Shown one piece after another: positions 12,670 to 19,043 of a DNA stretch of 64,000 bases; the stretch's first letter is position 1, and each line of letters starts with the position of its first letter. Made by a program: the position numbers and the translations under genes. Where the stretch lies: NCBI RefSeq assembly GCF_014191605.1, contig NZ_JACHWU010000002.1, forward strand, positions 558,001-622,000, given 5' to 3'. The DNA is from Prauserella isguenensis. Its GTDB lineage: Bacteria; Actinomycetota; Actinomycetes; Mycobacteriales; Pseudonocardiaceae. Under the pieces are notes generated by a model. It was not told the DNA's origin. It ran no database searches and saw only the letters and a list, made by a program, of their open reading frames with translations.

Positions 12670-12710
12670 GTTCGTCTGGACGTAACCGGGCCCCCGGTAG
12701 GTTGCACCCG

Positions 12711-13943
12711 ATGACGGATCGACTCGCGCGCAGACTGGGCACTCCGCAAGCCGTGGTCGTGGGCCTGAGCGCCATGGTCGGCGCGGGCGTGTACACGGCG
12801 TTCGCCCCGGCCGCGGCGGCCGCGGGCGGGGCGTTGCCCGTCGCGCTGTTGCTGGCGGCGTTCGTGGCCTACTGCAACGCCACGGCGTCGGCCCGCCTCG
12901 CCGCGCGGTACCCGGAGTCCGGCGGAACGTACGTCTACGGCCGGGAGCGCCTCGGCCCGTTCTGGGGGTATCTCGCCGGGTGGGGGTTCGTCGTCGGCAA
13001 GACGGCCAGTTGCGCGGCGATGGCGCTGACGGTGGTCGCGTACGCGGCACCCGGGCTCGGCCAGCCGTGGCGCGGGGTGCTGGCCGTGGCGGTGGTCGCG
13101 GCGATCACGACGCTCGACTACCGCGGGGTGCACCGGTCCACCCGTGCCGCCGCGGTGCTGGTGACGATCAGTCTGCTGGCCCTCGCCACTGCGGTCGTCG
13201 CCGCACTCGCCGCGGGGAATCCGCAGGCGAGCGGACTCGATCCGAGCGTGGGCACCGGGCCGCGGGGCGTGCTGGAGGCGGCCGGGCTGCTGTTCTTCGC
13301 CTTCGCCGGGTACGCACGGGTGGCCACGCTCGGCGAGGAGGTCCGGGACCCGTCACGGACGATCCCGCGCGCCGTCGCGTGGGCGCTCGGACTCGTACTC
13401 GTGGTGTACGCGGTCGTCGCGTTCGCCCTGCTCGCCACGCTCGGCCCCGACGGGATCGCGGCCGCCGAGGACCCGGTGGCCGAGGCGGTCGCCGCGACCG
13501 GGTTGACCGGCCTCGTCCCCGTCGTGCGTATCGGTGCCGTGCTCGCAGCACTGGGCGCGCTGCTCGCGCTGCTGCTCGGCGTGTCGAGGACGGTTCTCGC
13601 CATGGCCCGCGACCGGCACCTGCCCCACGGTCTCACCGCGGTGCATCCGCGTTTCGGCGTGCCACACCGGGCCGAGGTCGCCGTCGGCGTCGTCGTGGCG
13701 GCCCTGGCGGCGACCGTCGACCTGCGGGAGGCCATCGGGTTCTCGTCGCTGGCCGTGCTCGTCTACTACGCCGTCGCCAACGCGAGTGCGTTCACACTCG
13801 GCCGCAGGTTCGTCCCCGTCGCCGGGCTCGCGGGATGCCTGTTGTTGGCCGCGAACCTGCCGACGGCGTCCGTCCTGAGTGGACTCGCCGTGCTGGCGGT
13901 GGGAGCGCTCGCCTACGCGGTCAGGCGTCGTCGATCGCGGTGA
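12711..13943 (+). CDS. APC-family amino acid/polyamine permease
   Basis: A 410-aa secondary transporter with about 12 hydrophobic helices. TM1 contains the APC signature GLSAMVGAGVYTAFAPAAAAAGGALP, with the unwound GAGVY substrate site; YPESGGTYVYGRERLGPFWGYLAGW follows TM2, and FFAFAGYARVATLGEEVRDPSRTIPRA is the TM6 region. Cationic or neutral amino acids or amines are plausible substrates. The last eight codons (ending VRRRRSR and the stop) lie in the left copy of the 25-bp direct repeat that bounds the islet, so the C-terminus is the insertion point yet remains intact. Confidence 0.87.
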   Translation: MTDRLARRLGTPQAVVVGLSAMVGAGVYTAFAPAAAAAGGALPVALLLAAFVAYCNATASARLAARYPESGGTYVYGRERLGPFWGYLAGWGFVVGKTASCAAMALTVVAYAAPGLGQPWRGVLAVAVVAAITTLDYRGVHRSTRAAAVLVTISLLALATAVVAALAAGNPQASGLDPSVGTGPRGVLEAAGLLFFAFAGYARVATLGEEVRDPSRTIPRAVAWALGLVLVVYAVVAFALLATLGPDGIAAAEDPVAEAVAATGLTGLVPVVRIGAVLAALGALLALLLGVSRTVLAMARDRHLPHGLTAVHPRFGVPHRAEVAVGVVVAALAATVDLREAIGFSSLAVLVYYAVANASAFTLGRRFVPVAGLAGCLLLAANLPTASVLSGLAVLAVGALAYAVRRRRSR

Positions 13944-13945
13944 GC
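13921..13945. repeat. 25-bp direct repeat, left copy (putative attL)
   Basis: Identical over 25 bases to 17934-17958, beginning TCAGGCGTCG and ending GCGGTGAGC. It contains the permease stop codon (TGA at 13941-13943). Identity ends at both borders of the repeat. Confidence 0.85.
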
Positions 13946-14041
13946 AGCTACCCCTGATCAACCGGCGCCAGGAGCACCGGCGCCGTACCACCCCCACCGA
14001 CGGGCGCACGCCGGAGCCGGATGTCGTCACCCGGTCGGACC

Positions 14042-14062
14042 TTTCTGTCAGGTAGACAAAAA
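14042..14062 (+). promoter_or_regulatory. Inverted-repeat operator before the Nudix regulator gene
   Basis: TTTCTGTC, a 5-base spacer AGGTA and GACAAAAA form a near-perfect palindrome (7 of 8 arm positions; core TGTC/GACA) directly upstream of the start. It is a candidate self-binding site for the NrtR-like protein that would control the three-gene operon. Confidence 0.5.
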
Positions 14063-14077
14063 GATATGGTTCGAGCC

Positions 14078-14809
14078 ATGTCCGACGAGAACTGGTCTCC
14101 TCCACCCGTCCTGCTCGCCGTGGACCTGGTGATCTTCACCTTGCGGCACTCGCAGCTACAGGTCCTGCTCGTCGAACGTGGCATCGACCCGTACCGGGGT
14201 CGTGCGGCGTTACCGGGAGGATTCCTCAACAACGACAGTGAGGACCTGCTGGCGGCTGCTCATCGTGAGCTCGACGAGGAAGCAGACCTCGATGCCGCAC
14301 GACTGCACCTCGAACAGCTGGGCACCTACGGTGCAGCGGACCGGGATCCCCGTGGCCGCGTTGTCTCCGTGGCATATTTGGCGATCGCCCCTCACCTGCC
14401 AGAGCCCACGGCCGGTACCGACGCCGCAGGCGCCGCGTGGCGGCCAGTCGACGCGATCACCTCGGGCGAACTCCCCCTCGCCTTCGACCACGACGTCATC
14501 ATCGCCGACGGAATCGAACGGGCTCGCTCGAAGCTGGAGCACACCCCGCTCGCGACGGCGTTCTGTGAACCGACCTTCACGATCTCCGACCTTCAGCAGG
14601 TGTACGAGGCCGTATGGGGAGTCGACCTCGACCCACGCAACTTCTACCGGAAAGTACAGAAGGTTCCGGATTTCATACGGCCCGTCGACGCTGAACGTCG
14701 CGTCACGAAGGGACGTCCGGCTCGACTCTTCACCGCCGGACCGGCGACCTCGCTTCATCCACCCATCCCGCGACCTGGCGGTACCGCCGAACCCGAGGGG
14801 CAGCGATGA
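14078..14809 (+). CDS. NrtR-like Nudix-domain transcriptional regulator
   Basis: A 243-aa protein with an N-terminal Nudix domain (about 10-145) and a C-terminal winged-helix segment (TFTISDLQQVYEAVWGVDLDPRNFYRKVQKV, about 165-200), the architecture of NrtR-type regulators that sense NAD-derived ligands such as ADP-ribose. The Nudix box is degenerate. One extra residue separates the first Gly from the Glu, and the conserved terminal Gly is Asp in RELDEEADL, suggesting binding rather than hydrolysis. The ATG at 14078 is chosen; 14066 is also in frame. The stop overlaps the next gene as ATGA. A palindrome at 14042-14062 is the likely operator. Confidence 0.78.
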   Translation: MSDENWSPPPVLLAVDLVIFTLRHSQLQVLLVERGIDPYRGRAALPGGFLNNDSEDLLAAAHRELDEEADLDAARLHLEQLGTYGAADRDPRGRVVSVAYLAIAPHLPEPTAGTDAAGAAWRPVDAITSGELPLAFDHDVIIADGIERARSKLEHTPLATAFCEPTFTISDLQQVYEAVWGVDLDPRNFYRKVQKVPDFIRPVDAERRVTKGRPARLFTAGPATSLHPPIPRPGGTAEPEGQR

Positions 14810-15948
14810 CCACTCACACGATCGTCGTACTCACCGCGCTCAATTCCGAATACCGCGCGGTCCGACGCCACCTTTCCCATTTGCGCAAGCACCGTCACGA
14901 GAAGGGAACCCGGTTCGAACTGGGGACCATTCCGGACACCCCTCACCAGGTCGCTCTCGGATTGGCCGACAAGGGGAACCATCGGGCGGCCGTCATGGCG
15001 GAACGAGCACTCACCGAGTTCGACCCTCTCGCCGTCCTGTTCGTCGGCGTGGCGGGCGGGCTGTTGAACACGCCGCTCGGCGATGTCGTGGTTGCGTCGA
15101 AGGTCTACGGCTACCACGGCGGTACCAGCGAGGACGACGGTCTCAAGGCACGCCCGGAGGCATGGCAGCTCGACCACGGGCTCAGTCAGCTGGCTCAGGA
15201 GCTGGGCCGCAGCGGCGGTTGGGCGACCGGAATCCAGGAGACGGACCGGACGCCGGCCGTGCACTTCGCGCCGATCGCAGCCGGTGAGGTCGTGCAGAAC
15301 TCCGGCACATCACGCGAGGCGGTCTGGCTCCGCGAACACTTCAATGATGCGCGTGCCGTCGAGATGGAGGGAGCCGGTGTCGCTCAGGCCGGGCAACTCA
15401 ACGGCGCACCGGTCGCGGTCATCCGCGGCATCAGCGACCACGCCGACGGCACCAAGACAACAGCAGCCGACGCCGTGTGGCAGCCCCGAGCGGCAGACCA
15501 CGCTGCGGCGTTCGCCATCCGACTCGCCCGCGAACGGGCCGCAGAAGAGGAGCATTCACCCATGTCCCGACAGCACGATCCCGGGCCCCGGTACGTCCAG
15601 AAGGTCGACGGCGGATCGGTCGCCATCCAAGGCAGCACCGTGACGAACTCCGTCGTCGCGGCACAGAACACGGACCGCGACGTCGACGCGCCCACCGACC
15701 TTCGCCGCGAGCTGATGGACCTTCGCACCGAGCTCGAGCAACTCAGAGCCCGCAACGAACTCGACGCCGAAACGGCGCATGCCGCCCAGACCGAACTCGA
15801 CACGGCGAGCGCGACGCTGACCGATCCGGACTCGACGAAGAAGTCCTTCGTGCTTGCCCTCAGGCGACTCTACGGGGTGGTCATGGGTGTCACGGATTTC
15901 GCGGCAAAGGTCGCCACACTGATCACCGCCGCGGAGGCGCTGCCATGA
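14806..15948 (+). CDS. Nucleosidase-domain protein with C-terminal adhesion-like motif and coiled coil
   Basis: A 380-aa protein. Residues 1-240 form a PNP/UDP-type nucleoside phosphorylase fold of the MTA/SAH nucleosidase kind: start VVLTALNSEYRAVRRHL, glycine motif LFVGVAGGLLNTPLGD, and the catalytic signatures VEMEGAG (185-191) and ISDHAD (Asp211), so the active site looks intact. A short motif GSVAIQGSTVTNSVV (about 270-284) follows, then a Leu/Glu-rich coiled coil (295-335) and a helical tail (345-378). The motif recurs at the N-terminus of the next protein. This domain is a known effector in bacterial and fungal immune-type proteins. It overlaps both neighbours by ATGA. The substrate is unknown. 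Confidence 0.75.
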   Translation: MTTHTIVVLTALNSEYRAVRRHLSHLRKHRHEKGTRFELGTIPDTPHQVALGLADKGNHRAAVMAERALTEFDPLAVLFVGVAGGLLNTPLGDVVVASKVYGYHGGTSEDDGLKARPEAWQLDHGLSQLAQELGRSGGWATGIQETDRTPAVHFAPIAAGEVVQNSGTSREAVWLREHFNDARAVEMEGAGVAQAGQLNGAPVAVIRGISDHADGTKTTAADAVWQPRAADHAAAFAIRLARERAAEEEHSPMSRQHDPGPRYVQKVDGGSVAIQGSTVTNSVVAAQNTDRDVDAPTDLRRELMDLRTELEQLRARNELDAETAHAAQTELDTASATLTDPDSTKKSFVLALRRLYGVVMGVTDFAAKVATLITAAEALP

Positions 15949-17918
15949 CCAGCGAGGAGAACGAGGAACCCACGGGTGAACACGTCGCCGAGGTCCGAGA
16001 GGGAAGCGCCTCCGTCAACAACAGCGTTCTCATCGACAGCGTCGTCCATACTTCCACTCACTATCACCTCGACGGAGGGGCCTCTTACGAAGACCTACTC
16101 CGCGAAGCAATCACCATGCTCGACACGCGGGCACGAACGAAAGCCATCGAGTATCTACACGACGCGAGGGCCAAGCGTGACACGACCGAAGCCAGATTCT
16201 ACCTGGCAATCGCCCTCCTCAGTAACCGTTCTTTCCGGGACCTCAAAGAGCACGAAGAACAGGAACTCCTCGGCCTTACCAGGTTTCTAAATTGGTACGA
16301 CGATCAACGATGGAAGCCAGCACTGAGCCTGGTGTGCGAGCTGGCCAGACGACACCGCAACGGCGAAACCGGAGGAGAACACCTCGTTGGACAAATCAAC
16401 GAGCTGGGCCCTATCCAGAAGAGGCTCATCGACGACCACCTTCGACACGTCTTGGACGGTGAGTCACGAGAACGCCTGTGGGCAGCTCGCCACCAGGACG
16501 CCCGCAACCGCCGGATCGAGAACGACCGCCGCAGTCGCGTCTGGGCGTACTTCTGCGCAAAGCCGGCAAACGCCCGAGCTCGAACGCCACGGCCGGACGC
16601 CACGACCCTAGATGATCTCGTTCGCGCCCGGGTCTGGCTCGCCGTCTTCACCGTCTCCGCGACCTACATCGGCTGGTTGACTGTATCGACAACCAACCTG
16701 CTGATGGCGGCGATCTTTCTCCTCGCCGTCGGCAGCACGTTTGTGGGTGTTCGCTGCGGGGTCGACTGGCACTATCGAAGTCGACGCGTCGCCGGCAAGG
16801 ATCGGCAGTACACATTCGACCCGTTCAAGCGGCGTTCGGACAGCGGATTCGCCGGAGACGTGACGTTCTACTTCGACAGGTACTTCCGCAGGTATGCACC
16901 CGAGGGTGTCGATGAACACGTCTACCTCAAGGAGGTCGCCGGCTTCAAGGCGTTTCTTCGCGACGAGATCGTAGAGATATACAGAGAACAAAAGGTGGGT
17001 TGCAGCAATGTGCGCTGGCTCATCCGCGATCTCGCAAAGGAGGTCCAGAGCCGCTACGAAGACCGGAAATTGCATGCTTACCACGAGCGTTACCGAACAC
17101 CGACAGCCATCAAACGGTGGTGCGTACTCGGCGTTCTCTCGGCGGCAGCAGGATGGATCACGACCGTCGTGCAGCTGTCCTCGCTATCTCCTCTCCGCAC
17201 AACAATAGCCGTGCTGATCGCCGCGACAGCGGGAGCAGTCAGCATGCTCCGGTGGGACCACATCGTTCTCGAGCGTCGCCGGGCGTTCGATGACCGCGTC
17301 GAGTACGACGAGGAGATCGCACAGCGTGAACGATGGCTGGAAGAATGGAAGCAGAAGATCGACGATGCACTTCCAAGCGAAACGGAGATGCAAAGCTGGC
17401 TGGAATACGACCTCACCCTATTGCTCGACCAAATCCTCAAGACCTATCGACTGTCGTGGAAAGACGTGATCCGGGACGCCACTCTCCTGTCACCACCCGA
17501 CAAGCGACACCGAGCTCGTATCAGGAACGGGCCGTGGCGATACACACGCTACGAAGTCCACATCTTTCTGCTGACCAAGGACGGCGTTCGCGAGGTCACC
17601 ACCGAGCTCGACTTCAAAGGGATCCGATTCGGAGCCCAGTCGAGGCACAATTTCCGCTTCGACGCCGTCTCTTCCATCTATGTCGAACGCGCGACGAATG
17701 GGAGCCATCAACTCCAACTGTCACTCATGAACGGTGATCCGAGGCCGATCCGTGTCGCCGATACCGTGGTGGACGACGACCTCCGGGAGGGCGAGGACCC
17801 GGACCGGATCGCCGAAATGAACCTCGATGCCTCCGGTTTCGTCCACACCTTGCGACTCCTGGAAGGCATTGCGGCCGAGGGCAAAGAGTGGATCCGGCGC
17901 GAACCGGTGCACCGATGA
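15945..17918 (+). CDS. Four-helix membrane protein sharing a motif with the upstream nucleosidase protein
   Basis: A 657-aa protein that I do not recognise. Residues 19-35 hold EGSASVNNSVLIDSVVH, which aligns without gaps to the GSVAIQGSTVTNSVVA motif of the preceding protein. Residues 45-200 are helical and charged. Two pairs of transmembrane helices follow (about 229-250/252-271 and 391-411/418-436) with about 120 residues between them. A soluble C-terminal part (440-657) includes a possible beta-rich domain around RYEVHIFLLTKDGVREVTTELDFKGIRFG. It is coupled to the upstream gene by ATGA and lies last in the islet. By position it could be the membrane partner of a signalling pair; that is inference. 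Confidence 0.62.
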   Translation: MTSEENEEPTGEHVAEVREGSASVNNSVLIDSVVHTSTHYHLDGGASYEDLLREAITMLDTRARTKAIEYLHDARAKRDTTEARFYLAIALLSNRSFRDLKEHEEQELLGLTRFLNWYDDQRWKPALSLVCELARRHRNGETGGEHLVGQINELGPIQKRLIDDHLRHVLDGESRERLWAARHQDARNRRIENDRRSRVWAYFCAKPANARARTPRPDATTLDDLVRARVWLAVFTVSATYIGWLTVSTTNLLMAAIFLLAVGSTFVGVRCGVDWHYRSRRVAGKDRQYTFDPFKRRSDSGFAGDVTFYFDRYFRRYAPEGVDEHVYLKEVAGFKAFLRDEIVEIYREQKVGCSNVRWLIRDLAKEVQSRYEDRKLHAYHERYRTPTAIKRWCVLGVLSAAAGWITTVVQLSSLSPLRTTIAVLIAATAGAVSMLRWDHIVLERRRAFDDRVEYDEEIAQRERWLEEWKQKIDDALPSETEMQSWLEYDLTLLLDQILKTYRLSWKDVIRDATLLSPPDKRHRARIRNGPWRYTRYEVHIFLLTKDGVREVTTELDFKGIRFGAQSRHNFRFDAVSSIYVERATNGSHQLQLSLMNGDPRPIRVADTVVDDDLREGEDPDRIAEMNLDASGFVHTLRLLEGIAAEGKEWIRREPVHR

Positions 17919-17933
17919 TCGGGAGTTACCTCC

Positions 17934-17958
17934 TCAGGCGTCGTCGATCGCGGTGAGC
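17934..17958. repeat. 25-bp direct repeat, right copy (putative attR)
   Basis: Perfect copy of 13921-13945. It contains the stop codon of the minus-strand nitronate monooxygenase-like gene (TCA at 17934-17936, read TGA). Confidence 0.85.
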
Positions 17959-19043
17959 TTGCCGACGGCGGCGGAGAAGCCGGCCGTCAGCTCCGCGACG
18001 ATGTCCGCGACCGGGCGCACCTCGTTCATCCGGCCCACGATCTGGCCGACGGGCATCGACACGACCGACGGGTCGGTCGAGGCGTGGATCCGGTTGTGCG
18101 CCGGCGCCACGAGCAGGTTCTGCAACGGCATCGGCAGCGGGTGCGGGGCGTCCGGCTGCGACCACGCCTCCGTCCACCGCGTCTTCAGCAGCCGCGCCGG
18201 TTTGCCGGTGTAGATCCGCGTCCGCACCGTGTCGGCCGACGTGGCCGCCAGCAGTGCCTGCTGCATCGGCTCCGACGACGGCATCGTCTCGAGATACTCG
18301 CGGGTGCCCAGCCAGATCGACCCGGTCCACACCCCGGCCGCACCGAGCGCGAGCGCCGCCGCGGCCTGCCTGCCCGAACCGATACCGCCCGCAGCCAGCA
18401 CCGGGGCCCGATCGCCCACCGCGTCGACGATCTCCGGCAACAGCACCATCGACGCGATCTCACCGGTGTGCCCACCCGCTTCGTGACCCTGCGCCACGAC
18501 GAAGTCCACGCCGTTGTCGACGTGGCGCACCGCGTGCTCGGCCTTGCCCGCGAGCGCCGCCACCGGCACACCGCGGGAGTGGGCCTGCGCGATGACGTCC
18601 GGCGGCGGCGAACCGAGCGCGTTGGCGATCAGCGCGATCGGATGTTCGAGGGCCACCTCGACGTGCGAACGGGCCACCGAGTGCAGCCAGCCCAGCACGC
18701 CGTCGCGGCCCTGGCCCTCGGGCAGTTCCGGCACACCCAGCTGCGCGAGCGTGCGGTCGACGAACTCCCGGTGCTCCTCCGGGATCAGCGTCTCGGGATC
18801 GATGCCCTTGACCTCGTCGGGCACCTTCGCCGGCATCACGACGTCGACGCCGTACGGTTTGCCGTCGGTGTTGGCGTCCATCCACCCGAGCACCTTGTCG
18901 AGCTCGTCGGCGTCGTTGAATCGCACACAGCCGAGCACTCCGAGCCCGCCCGCACGGCTGATCGCCGCCGCGACGTGCTCGGACGGGGTGAAGCCGATGA
19001 TCGGCACGTCGATGCCGAGGGTGTCGCACAGGGACGTGCGCAT
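17934..19043 (-). CDS. Nitronate monooxygenase-family flavoprotein
   Basis: A 369-aa FMN-dependent TIM-barrel protein of the 2-nitropropane dioxygenase/NMO family. It shows an N-terminal PIIGFTPSEHVAAAISRAGGLGVLGCVRF, the catalytic-region sequence VDFVVAQGHEAGGHTGE, and the FMN phosphate loop VLAAGGIGSGRQAAAALALGAAGVWTGS. Relatives oxidise nitronates or act as flavin reductases; one (IpdC) works in mycobacterial steroid ring degradation, but this sequence looks closer to the Rv1533-like branch, so no symbol is given. The ATG at 19043 gives the canonical N-terminus. The final codons lie in the right direct repeat of the islet. Confidence 0.82.
   Translation of the reverse strand: MRTSLCDTLGIDVPIIGFTPSEHVAAAISRAGGLGVLGCVRFNDADELDKVLGWMDANTDGKPYGVDVVMPAKVPDEVKGIDPETLIPEEHREFVDRTLAQLGVPELPEGQGRDGVLGWLHSVARSHVEVALEHPIALIANALGSPPPDVIAQAHSRGVPVAALAGKAEHAVRHVDNGVDFVVAQGHEAGGHTGEIASMVLLPEIVDAVGDRAPVLAAGGIGSGRQAAAALALGAAGVWTGSIWLGTREYLETMPSSEPMQQALLAATSADTVRTRIYTGKPARLLKTRWTEAWSQPDAPHPLPMPLQNLLVAPAHNRIHASTDPSVVSMPVGQIVGRMNEVRPVADIVAELTAGFSAAVGKLTAIDDA

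Follow-up and report, generated by a model that had tools for sequence, protein, structure and literature searches.

A three-gene cassette inserted precisely where two convergent genes of Prauserella isguenensis share their 3' end, and its possible role in defence

Introduction

Genomic islets bounded by direct repeats are known at the 3' ends of genes, where the insertion restores the end of the gene that it enters. The islet of Prauserella isguenensis described here differs from them in two ways: two convergent genes are restored at once, and no integrase accompanies them. It carries a cassette of three genes (a NUDIX-type regulator, an enzyme of the PNP/MTAN type and a partner protein) which resembles several described systems. 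In bacterial amyloid signalling pairs (BASS), and especially in the RHIM-like BASS3, the genes are adjacent, as in the cassette, and a motif is found both on the C-terminal side of the effector and at the N-terminus of its partner, as in most copies of the cassette family; these pairs further share with the family an xGxQxG-type core and an occurrence in filamentous actinobacteria. The cassette departs from BASS in that its putative effector is a PNP/MTAN enzyme rather than Bell, with a nested start for a free tail, in that its partner has two hydrophobic stretches and no recognised NLR or NTPase domain, and in that the motifs of Prauserella are degenerate.

Fungal PNP_UDP effectors carry C-terminal PUASM, PP or HRAM motifs and, as may hold for the cassette, this C-terminal amyloid signalling motif is matched in the N-terminus encoded by a neighbouring gene; the fungal partners, however, are NLRs, and a NUDIX repressor is not mentioned in the part of that source cited here (PMC9815663). 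The repressors NrtR and AraR combine, like the first protein of the cassette, a NUDIX domain with a winged helix, and have a palindromic upstream site, but the NUDIX gene of the cassette is tied to a PNP-type operon rather than to genes for NAD salvage or for arabinose. In Pseudomonas, the binding of ADP-ribose makes NrtR release its DNA, according to the passages cited here (PMC11535050). We found no published description of the three-gene cassette in the literature, as judged by titles and the openings of abstracts.

A precise insertion between two gene ends

We analysed a stretch of 64,000 nucleotides of P. isguenensis (contig NZ_JACHWU010000002.1, positions 558,001 to 622,000), hereafter the window, whose numbering is used throughout. 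A preliminary description had claimed that a perfect 25 bp direct repeat bounds an islet of 3,988 bp (13946-17933). This is confirmed: the left copy (13921-13945) is exactly identical to the right copy (17934-17958) and the match cannot be extended by one base on either side. The repeat is not one of a common genomic family, which would have spoken against an insertion: a query of 81 bp that spans the left copy matched the genome (15 contigs, 100% complete) at only these two places, the second match being exactly the 25 bp. The longest exact direct repeat is 25 bp in the 8 kb tile of the islet; the window's 14 other tiles, which overlap, give 13-17 bp and 300 order-2 Markov sequences 12-18 bp. 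The repeat exceeds chance. A looser search, for the core of the repeat with 2 mismatches, is uninformative and gives 21-38 places per strand per genome (0-2 for the backward control).

The left copy contains, as had been described, the stop codon of the left host gene, which encodes an APC-type amino acid permease (12702-13943, plus strand; PF13520, E 3.9e-42; 80-95% amino acid identity in six congeners): its TGA lies at 13941-13943, that is at offset 21-23 of the copy. The right copy contains the stop codon of the right host gene, a nitronate monooxygenase-like (NMO) gene on the minus strand (17934-19043; PF03060, 1.6e-45; 91-96% identity in six congeners), which reads TCA on the plus strand at 17934-17936, offset 1-3. 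It had been predicted from this geometry that an empty site would show the two genes overlapping tail to tail by about 23 bp around one copy of the repeat. Comparison with close relatives revealed exactly such a site in two congeners (G003 and G006), with an overlap of exactly 23 bp and a single copy. Two more genomes (G001 and G002) lack the islet at this site, so that it has no counterpart in four of the seven Prauserella genomes, and the opposite outcome, namely that all relatives carry the same three genes without repeats, is not what is seen. The islet is genuinely an insertion, and a precise one.

The same site is filled in P. halophila and P. salsuginis (the two genomes G004 and G005), between imperfect repeats of 49 bp (43/49 and 41/49). 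At all three filled sites the repeats derive from the target. The left junction of the window differs from that of the P. halophila/P. salsuginis pair: the left spacers of G004 and G005 resemble each other (0/1000 shuffles reach their alignment score), whereas the left spacer of the window has no significant similarity to that of G004 or of G005 (261/1000 and 161/1000 shuffles reach the score). A separate insertion in the window is more likely because this alignment is not significant. The two types of left junction are also what is expected under repeated use of one site, and the site was probably used more than once. The notion that the 25 bp repeat is a decayed 49 bp repeat is weakened, as the resemblance noticed by eye between the left spacers is not significant on alignment. 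Identity to the closest relative of the window shows no drop at the edges of the islet; import of the islet with long flanks by homologous recombination is unsupported.

The three genes of the islet

The first gene (14078-14809, plus strand) encodes a protein in which both domains expected of an NrtR-type repressor are present, a NUDIX domain (PF00293, 2.5e-14) and an NrtR-type winged helix (PF21906, 1.4e-14). Its score against the NCBIfam model of the ADPR-responsive repressor NtrR is 122 bits, under the cut-off of 400, and its matches in the PDB are 5bs6 (AraR) and 3gz5 ('MutT/nudix'). It is probably an ADP-ribose-responsive autorepressor. Upstream of its start stands a palindromic operator-like element of the TGTC-N-GACA type (CTTTCTGTC...GACAAAAAG, 14041-14063). 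Of 75 loci, 52 match a strict pattern of this palindrome ahead of the NUDIX start, nearly always at a distance of about 28-37 bp (one match lies at -65); by eye, many of the remaining 23 loci have variants of it. A -10-like box, TATGGT, can be seen by eye directly after the palindrome (14065-14070). A Shine-Dalgarno-like site precedes the NUDIX start in 5/75 loci, against 70/75 for the PNP gene, and the NUDIX start is probably leaderless.

The second gene (14806-15948, plus strand) encodes a PNP/MTA-SAH-nucleosidase-like enzyme with a C-terminal tail (PF01048, 4.7e-31; PADLOC PN-superfamily effector, 2.8e-20; MTAN structures), which scores 90.7 bits against the NCBIfam equivalog NF004079, under its threshold of 169. 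The catalytic Glu, Met-Glu and Asp positions are present: E15, M187-E188 and S210-D211, which we take to be the catalytic positions of E. coli MTAN, are invariant in 68 sequences. The enzyme is probably an effector. PADLOC matches it alone among the three proteins of the window, and reports no known anti-phage system with all its components.

Within this gene, an internal Shine-Dalgarno-like GAGGAG (15547-15552, plus strand) precedes a nested in-frame ORF of 128 amino acids (15562-15948, plus strand), which would yield the tail, with its motif region, as a free protein. When the best candidate is picked in each locus, 66 of 75 loci have an ATG or GTG preceded by a Shine-Dalgarno site. The start is ATG in 63 of the 75; 60 of these have the site, against 73 of the 640 other internal Met codons. 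The sequence comparison thus supports a three-gene operon with a nested start.

The third gene (15945-17918, plus strand) encodes a partner protein of 657 amino acids, whose copy in the window has no match in Pfam, NCBIfam or PADLOC. Among its 68 homologues, three Pfam families give one weak match each, none of them an NTPase, and five PADLOC families match one or two members weakly (best 3.2e-4). Mean hydropathy over 68 alignment rows delineates two hydrophobic stretches, at residues ~224-275 (16614-16769, plus strand), enough for a two-helix hairpin, and ~385-438 (17097-17258, plus strand). A RHIM/PP/BASS3-like motif occurs in the PNP tail (GGSVAIQGSTVTNSVV, 15610-15657, plus strand), and a motif region at the N-terminus of the partner (15984-16064, plus strand). 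The motif has a strict core, whose pattern was derived from the same data in which it was counted; 61 of 75 loci have this core in the enzyme as well as in the partner, and 0 of 1042 control windows do. Homologues of Micromonospora are among those with the strict core. The paired motif lies above the 99th percentile of shuffles in 65 of 75 loci. In the three Prauserella islets, that of the window included, both proteins fail the strict core and the motifs are degenerate.

Origin of the cassette and its distribution

The GC3 of the islet genes is 0.58-0.80, against 0.85-0.93 for the permease, lipoprotein-like and CoA-ligase genes. At fourfold sites, the NUDIX gene of the window diverges from those of the two congeners more than the permease gene does (p 0.008 and 0.0016); differences in GC3 may inflate this divergence, but the G004-G005 pair shows no such effect, its NUDIX divergence being like that of the hosts (p 0.17). 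The NUDIX gene of the window shows no acceleration relative to outgroups. The catalytic part of the window's PNP likewise differs from its counterparts in the other two Prauserella islets more than the permease does. The trees of NUDIX plus PNP and of the third gene conflict, and the tail and third gene were apparently exchanged as one block between two species, with a boundary at the nested start. That the cassette is foreign to the host genome is the best explanation.

Of 79 named loci, which lie almost all in Actinomycetota, 74 keep the three-gene operon. For 74 of the 75 loci (the flank of the other was too short), flanking repeats were sought within 500 bp to the left and right, with a control of mean score 10, 99th percentile 14 and maximum 38. 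Outside Prauserella (71 other loci), L129 scores 53, its repeat being a locally repeated element whose unit is present twice on each side, and L162 scores a borderline 15; the rest score at most 13. A repeat-bounded cassette is therefore not a general rule. Neither do the orientations of the neighbouring genes in 74 loci (24 -/+, 18 +/-, 17 +/+, 14 -/- and one unknown), counted with a crude ORF caller which miscalled at least one known neighbour (L099), show any preference for convergent gene ends. No relatives of the third gene were found in phage records and viral contigs, and a single one on plasmids, in Streptomyces; a mobile carrier of the cassette was not found in these records. For Amycolatopsis keratiniphila, 6 of the 10 related genomes resume homology 11-19 bases past the third gene, but the upstream flank could not be located within ~12-13 kb in the four relatives compared, which left no clean empty site.

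Discussion

We think it somewhat probable, taking all parts together, that an immune-type cassette was inserted at the shared 3' end, that this site was reused, and that the cassette serves as a threshold device for cell death or defence. In this reading a foreign self-contained cassette entered exactly where the two convergent overlapping genes share their 3' end, and recombination left target sequence to its left and right (25 bp here, 49 bp in two congeners), so that both gene ends survived. The likeliest event would be an att-like crossover in which the gene end of the chromosome recombined with a copy of itself on the incoming DNA, by way of an integrase in trans or of short homology. That the site was used more than once is probable: the window's cassette differs from that of P. 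halophila and P. salsuginis in its left junction and exceeds the hosts in divergence, sister species are empty, and the block of tail plus third gene has apparently been exchanged.

The preliminary description had proposed att-site integration at gene ends. The empty sites, the target-derived repeat, the steady identity of the flanks and the two left junctions speak for it, and a precise insertion with such a repeat is what an att-type integrative element would show. The rest of the proposal fares less well: no recombinase can be linked to the islet, copies elsewhere are rarely bounded by repeats, and convergent ends are not preferred. The islet had indeed been said to contain no recombinase, and neither PF00589 nor PF00239 matches anywhere in the window, although the genome has 8 matches to the tyrosine and 4 to the serine family; nor does ARAGORN find a tRNA gene in the window. 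As the cassette elsewhere is rarely found between repeats, the mechanism of insertion (integrase in trans, short-homology crossover or long duplication) is unproven.

The three islets could all stem from a single, ancient insertion that the five closest species inherited vertically from their common ancestor, with precise losses in G003 and G006 through recombination of the repeats, later decay of the window's left copy and no reuse of the site. In agreement with this, all three islets have a right repeat that starts at the NMO stop, the left repeat of G005 keeps the NMO-end version of G003, G004 and the window, unlike its own NMO gene and that of its sister G006, and the NUDIX divergence of G004 and G005 is host-like. 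We nevertheless hold this history to be unlikely, given the left spacer of the window, which has no significant similarity to the other two, the excess divergence of its NUDIX gene and PNP catalytic part without acceleration, and the conflicting trees. It is also somewhat unlikely that the islet is the remnant or cargo of an integrative element, in which the gene end served as attB for a tyrosine integrase that is now lost or acts from another place. A gene 3' end with a restoring repeat is the usual att geometry, tyrosine-recombinase matches exist in the genome and one site shows two types of junction; yet all those matches lie outside the window, and the islet genes with Pfam matches include no integrase or phage gene. 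The scarcity of repeats around other copies counts against such an element, as it does against a long target duplication, by which a transposition or break-repair event would have copied 25-49 bp. This last process would dispense with a recombinase and would leave target sequence at all three filled sites, but 25-49 bp is, to our knowledge, long for a target duplication, and the outer 40 bp contain no significant terminal inverted repeat (77, 642 and 731/1000 shuffles for G000, which is the genome of the window, G005 and G004); we regard it as distinctly improbable.

As for the function, the NUDIX repressor would autoregulate the operon, its repression being lifted by a ligand derived from NAD, for example ADP-ribose; the PNP/MTAN enzyme would act as effector; its tail would also be made separately from the nested start; and this tail and the N-terminus of the membrane-type partner would signal to each other via an amyloid-type motif, possibly by amyloid assembly. 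A threshold cell-death or defence device is the most likely role of such a cassette. The resemblance of the NUDIX protein to ADP-ribose-responsive NtrR and AraR-type regulators, and of the enzyme, with its conserved catalytic positions, to MTAN, would also suit an operon that is not immune but metabolic or regulatory, for the salvage of NAD or methylthioadenosine. That seems improbable to us in view of the patchy presence of the cassette at varied sites, its fast-evolving third protein, the paired motif, the block swapping and the PADLOC effector match.

We suggest, tentatively, that the cassette is an undescribed actinobacterial immune module, in which an ADP-ribose-type sensor-repressor would control a PNP/MTAN effector with an amyloid-type tail, also free via the nested start, a membrane-type partner would replace the NLR, tail and partner would form one specificity block, and the whole would enter and leave its gene-end site harmlessly. 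It would offer a compact case in which to test bacterial immune signalling of the amyloid type without an NLR, the nested signalling peptide being built in. The filled and empty sister species and the two types of junction may serve as a natural experiment on the precise entry of small recombinase-free cassettes at gene ends.

Insertion of the islet between two convergent genes

The direct repeat of 25 bp reported in the preliminary description, with copies at 13921..13945 and 17934..17958, was found to be identical in both copies and to end exactly at these positions. Chance does not account for this repeat: in a simulation of 300 sequences the longest exact repeat had 12-18 bp, and in the window's 14 other tiles, which overlap, it had 13-17 bp. 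When the left copy and its surroundings (81 bp in all) were searched against the whole genome, only these two places matched. The islet (13946..17933) is 3,988 bp long, and the 25 bp consist of the 23 bp gene overlap plus 2 bp, the portion which either gene needs.

We compared seven Prauserella genomes, the window's among them. The third gene of the islet is present in three (the window, P. halophila or G004, and P. salsuginis or G005) and missing from four. In two of the empty genomes, G003 and G006, the 3' ends of the permease and the nitronate monooxygenase-like gene (NMO) do overlap over 23 bp, as had been predicted for the empty site. The overlap is 14 bp in G002, and in G001 an 83 bp gap separates the two genes. 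To the eye this gap (locus L098), at a place where the genes of G002, G003 and G006 overlap, holds an apparent inverted repeat, long and rich in GC, which may be a bidirectional terminator. The window's nearest genome is G003 (fourfold sites of the permease and of a CoA-ligase-like gene), and G005 is, by identity, nearest or equal nearest to G006; among the three filled species, two therefore have a close relative whose site is empty. In steps of 100 bp, the identity between the window and G003 is 87-100% right to the islet edges on both sides. We concluded that the insertion is real and precise.

Junction types and history of the site

In G004 and G005 the repeat is 49 bp long, from the NMO stop to beyond the permease stop. 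The left copy matches the right one at 19/25 plus 24/24 positions (G004), 24/25 plus 17/24 (G005) and 25/25 plus 3/24 (window); the uneven agreement of the two halves suggests that parts of the repeat were exchanged or converted separately. The left copy of G005 carries the NMO-end version of G003, G004 and the window, and G005's own NMO is the G006 variant. The left spacer of the window has no significant similarity to those of G004 and G005 (score reached in 261 and 161 of 1000 shuffles), and these two are alike (score reached by none of 1000). Hence, the site shows two types of junction, which would be explained if the window's lineage had acquired its islet by an insertion of its own, or if the spacer had been replaced.

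GC3 is 0.58-0.80 in the islet genes versus 0.85-0.93 in three host genes. At fourfold sites the window differs from G005 at 58/133 positions of the NUDIX gene versus 88/294 of the permease (Fisher p 0.008) and from G004 at 56/132 versus 78/291 (p 0.0016); unequal GC3 could inflate such differences, though there is no excess between G004 and G005 (31/143 versus 86/307, p 0.17). The window copy is not accelerated, since six of the seven chosen outgroups are nearer to its NUDIX than to those of G004 and G005. Thus, the window cassette looks like a lineage older, at the same site, than the divergence of the hosts predicts. This favours, not conclusively, a repeated occupation of the site.

Distribution of the cassette

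In the family, 108 of 390 genomes match the third gene, many of the matches being distant or partial. When named genomes were scanned, 87 relatives turned up; the best 80 were kept (79 loci). The three genes stand in the same order in 74 of these 79, and the named hosts of these best 80 of 87 are all Actinomycetota but two contigs labelled as an Acidobacteriota MAG. The cassette fragments L172 and L174 come from contigs assigned to Acidobacteriota, perhaps through mis-binning of actinobacterial DNA. Neighbours of the cassette differ mostly between genomes.

In 13 loci (L131, L133, L137, L138 and nine others of Streptomyces or Kitasatospora) the first gene downstream, directly 3' of the cassette, is a fourth gene of 177-227 aa; L131, the sole member scanned, matched no Pfam family. 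In Micromonospora lutea (L129:5610-10340) a 39 bp unit flanks the cassette twice per side and seems to belong to a local family of intergenic repeats. Two other loci, L162 and L130, from two Micromonospora species, have imperfect direct repeats of 24-30 bp some 60-110 bp outside the cassette, scoring just above and just below the control threshold, respectively.

Gene products and nested start

The first gene encodes a NUDIX plus NrtR-type winged-helix protein. Upstream of its start, a strict TGTC-N-GACA-type palindrome occurs in 52 of 75 loci, about 28-37 bp before the start (one at -65); many of the other 23 have apparent variants by eye. The second product is MTA/SAH-nucleosidase-like, scores under the NCBIfam equivalog cut-offs, is invariant at the positions we take to be catalytic, and matches a PADLOC PN-superfamily effector. 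PNP-superfamily domains are known from conflict systems (PMC7159879, PMC8195603). The third protein has two hydrophobic stretches, each with room for a helical hairpin; the window copy has no match in Pfam, NCBIfam or PADLOC, and among 68 aligned rows the matches are weak only and fall in one or two members per family.

Within the PNP gene, 15562..15948 begins with a conserved in-frame internal start preceded by a ribosome-binding site. An ATG lies in the tail linker of 63/75 loci, 60 of these having a Shine-Dalgarno match of 4 or more, versus 73/640 other internal Met codons and 70/75 real PNP starts. With GTG included and a slightly different interval, the best candidate has a Shine-Dalgarno match in 66/75 loci (8 without, 1 with no candidate); both counts use the best candidate per locus, which somewhat favours the claim. 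Arg or Gly codons preceding the conserved Glu have G as their third base in 12/16 cases versus 3559/10955 (p 6e-4), and this Glu is encoded by GAG in 47/49 versus 2850/4267. Such codon choice is independent support for the putative nested start, whose predicted free tail product would have 128 aa in the window.

Paired motif and apparent block swap

The tail of the enzyme and the N-terminus of the third protein, its partner, share a motif, for example VNNTSSGQVGIQAGHVTGSTV (tail, L110) and NTAGPGATVGIQAEEVHNSTVY (partner, L102). Its strict core is found in 67/75 tails, 63/75 partner N-termini and 61/75 pairs, and in 0/1042 control windows, a control of specificity and not an independent discovery, because the core was defined on the same sequences. 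The misses include L153 and L173, where the reading frame could not be properly set. Both proteins lack the strict core in the three Prauserella islets, the window included. The tail-partner score lies above the 99th shuffle percentile in 65/75 loci; in the window it is 42 (shuffle mean 23.7, s.d. 4.6). The xGxQxG core of the cassette resembles the fungal PP core NxGxQxGxN, itself RHIM-related, and fungal PNP_UDP effectors bear such signalling motifs, according to PMC9815663. In bacterial BASS families, as described in PMC7889193, effector C-termini are paired with NLR N-termini.

The islets of G004 and G005 are 84-95% identical as far as about window position 15576, beyond which the identity is 44-70% (150-column steps), the break falling, by eye, at the nested start. 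By part, the identity is 95% for NUDIX, 94% for the catalytic part of PNP, 55% for the tail and 47% for the third protein. Among 293 cassette pairs with a NUDIX identity of at least 80%, none is a stronger outlier than this one for the third protein (z -7.1), and for the tail it ranks third (z -3.4). Trees built from 15 of the 75 loci are in line with a block swap: G004 groups with G005 for NUDIX plus PNP (100/99) and with the window for the third gene (99/98). Indirect evidence makes a putative cassette for regulated cell death or defence, with a specificity block formed by tail and partner, the best reading of the cargo.
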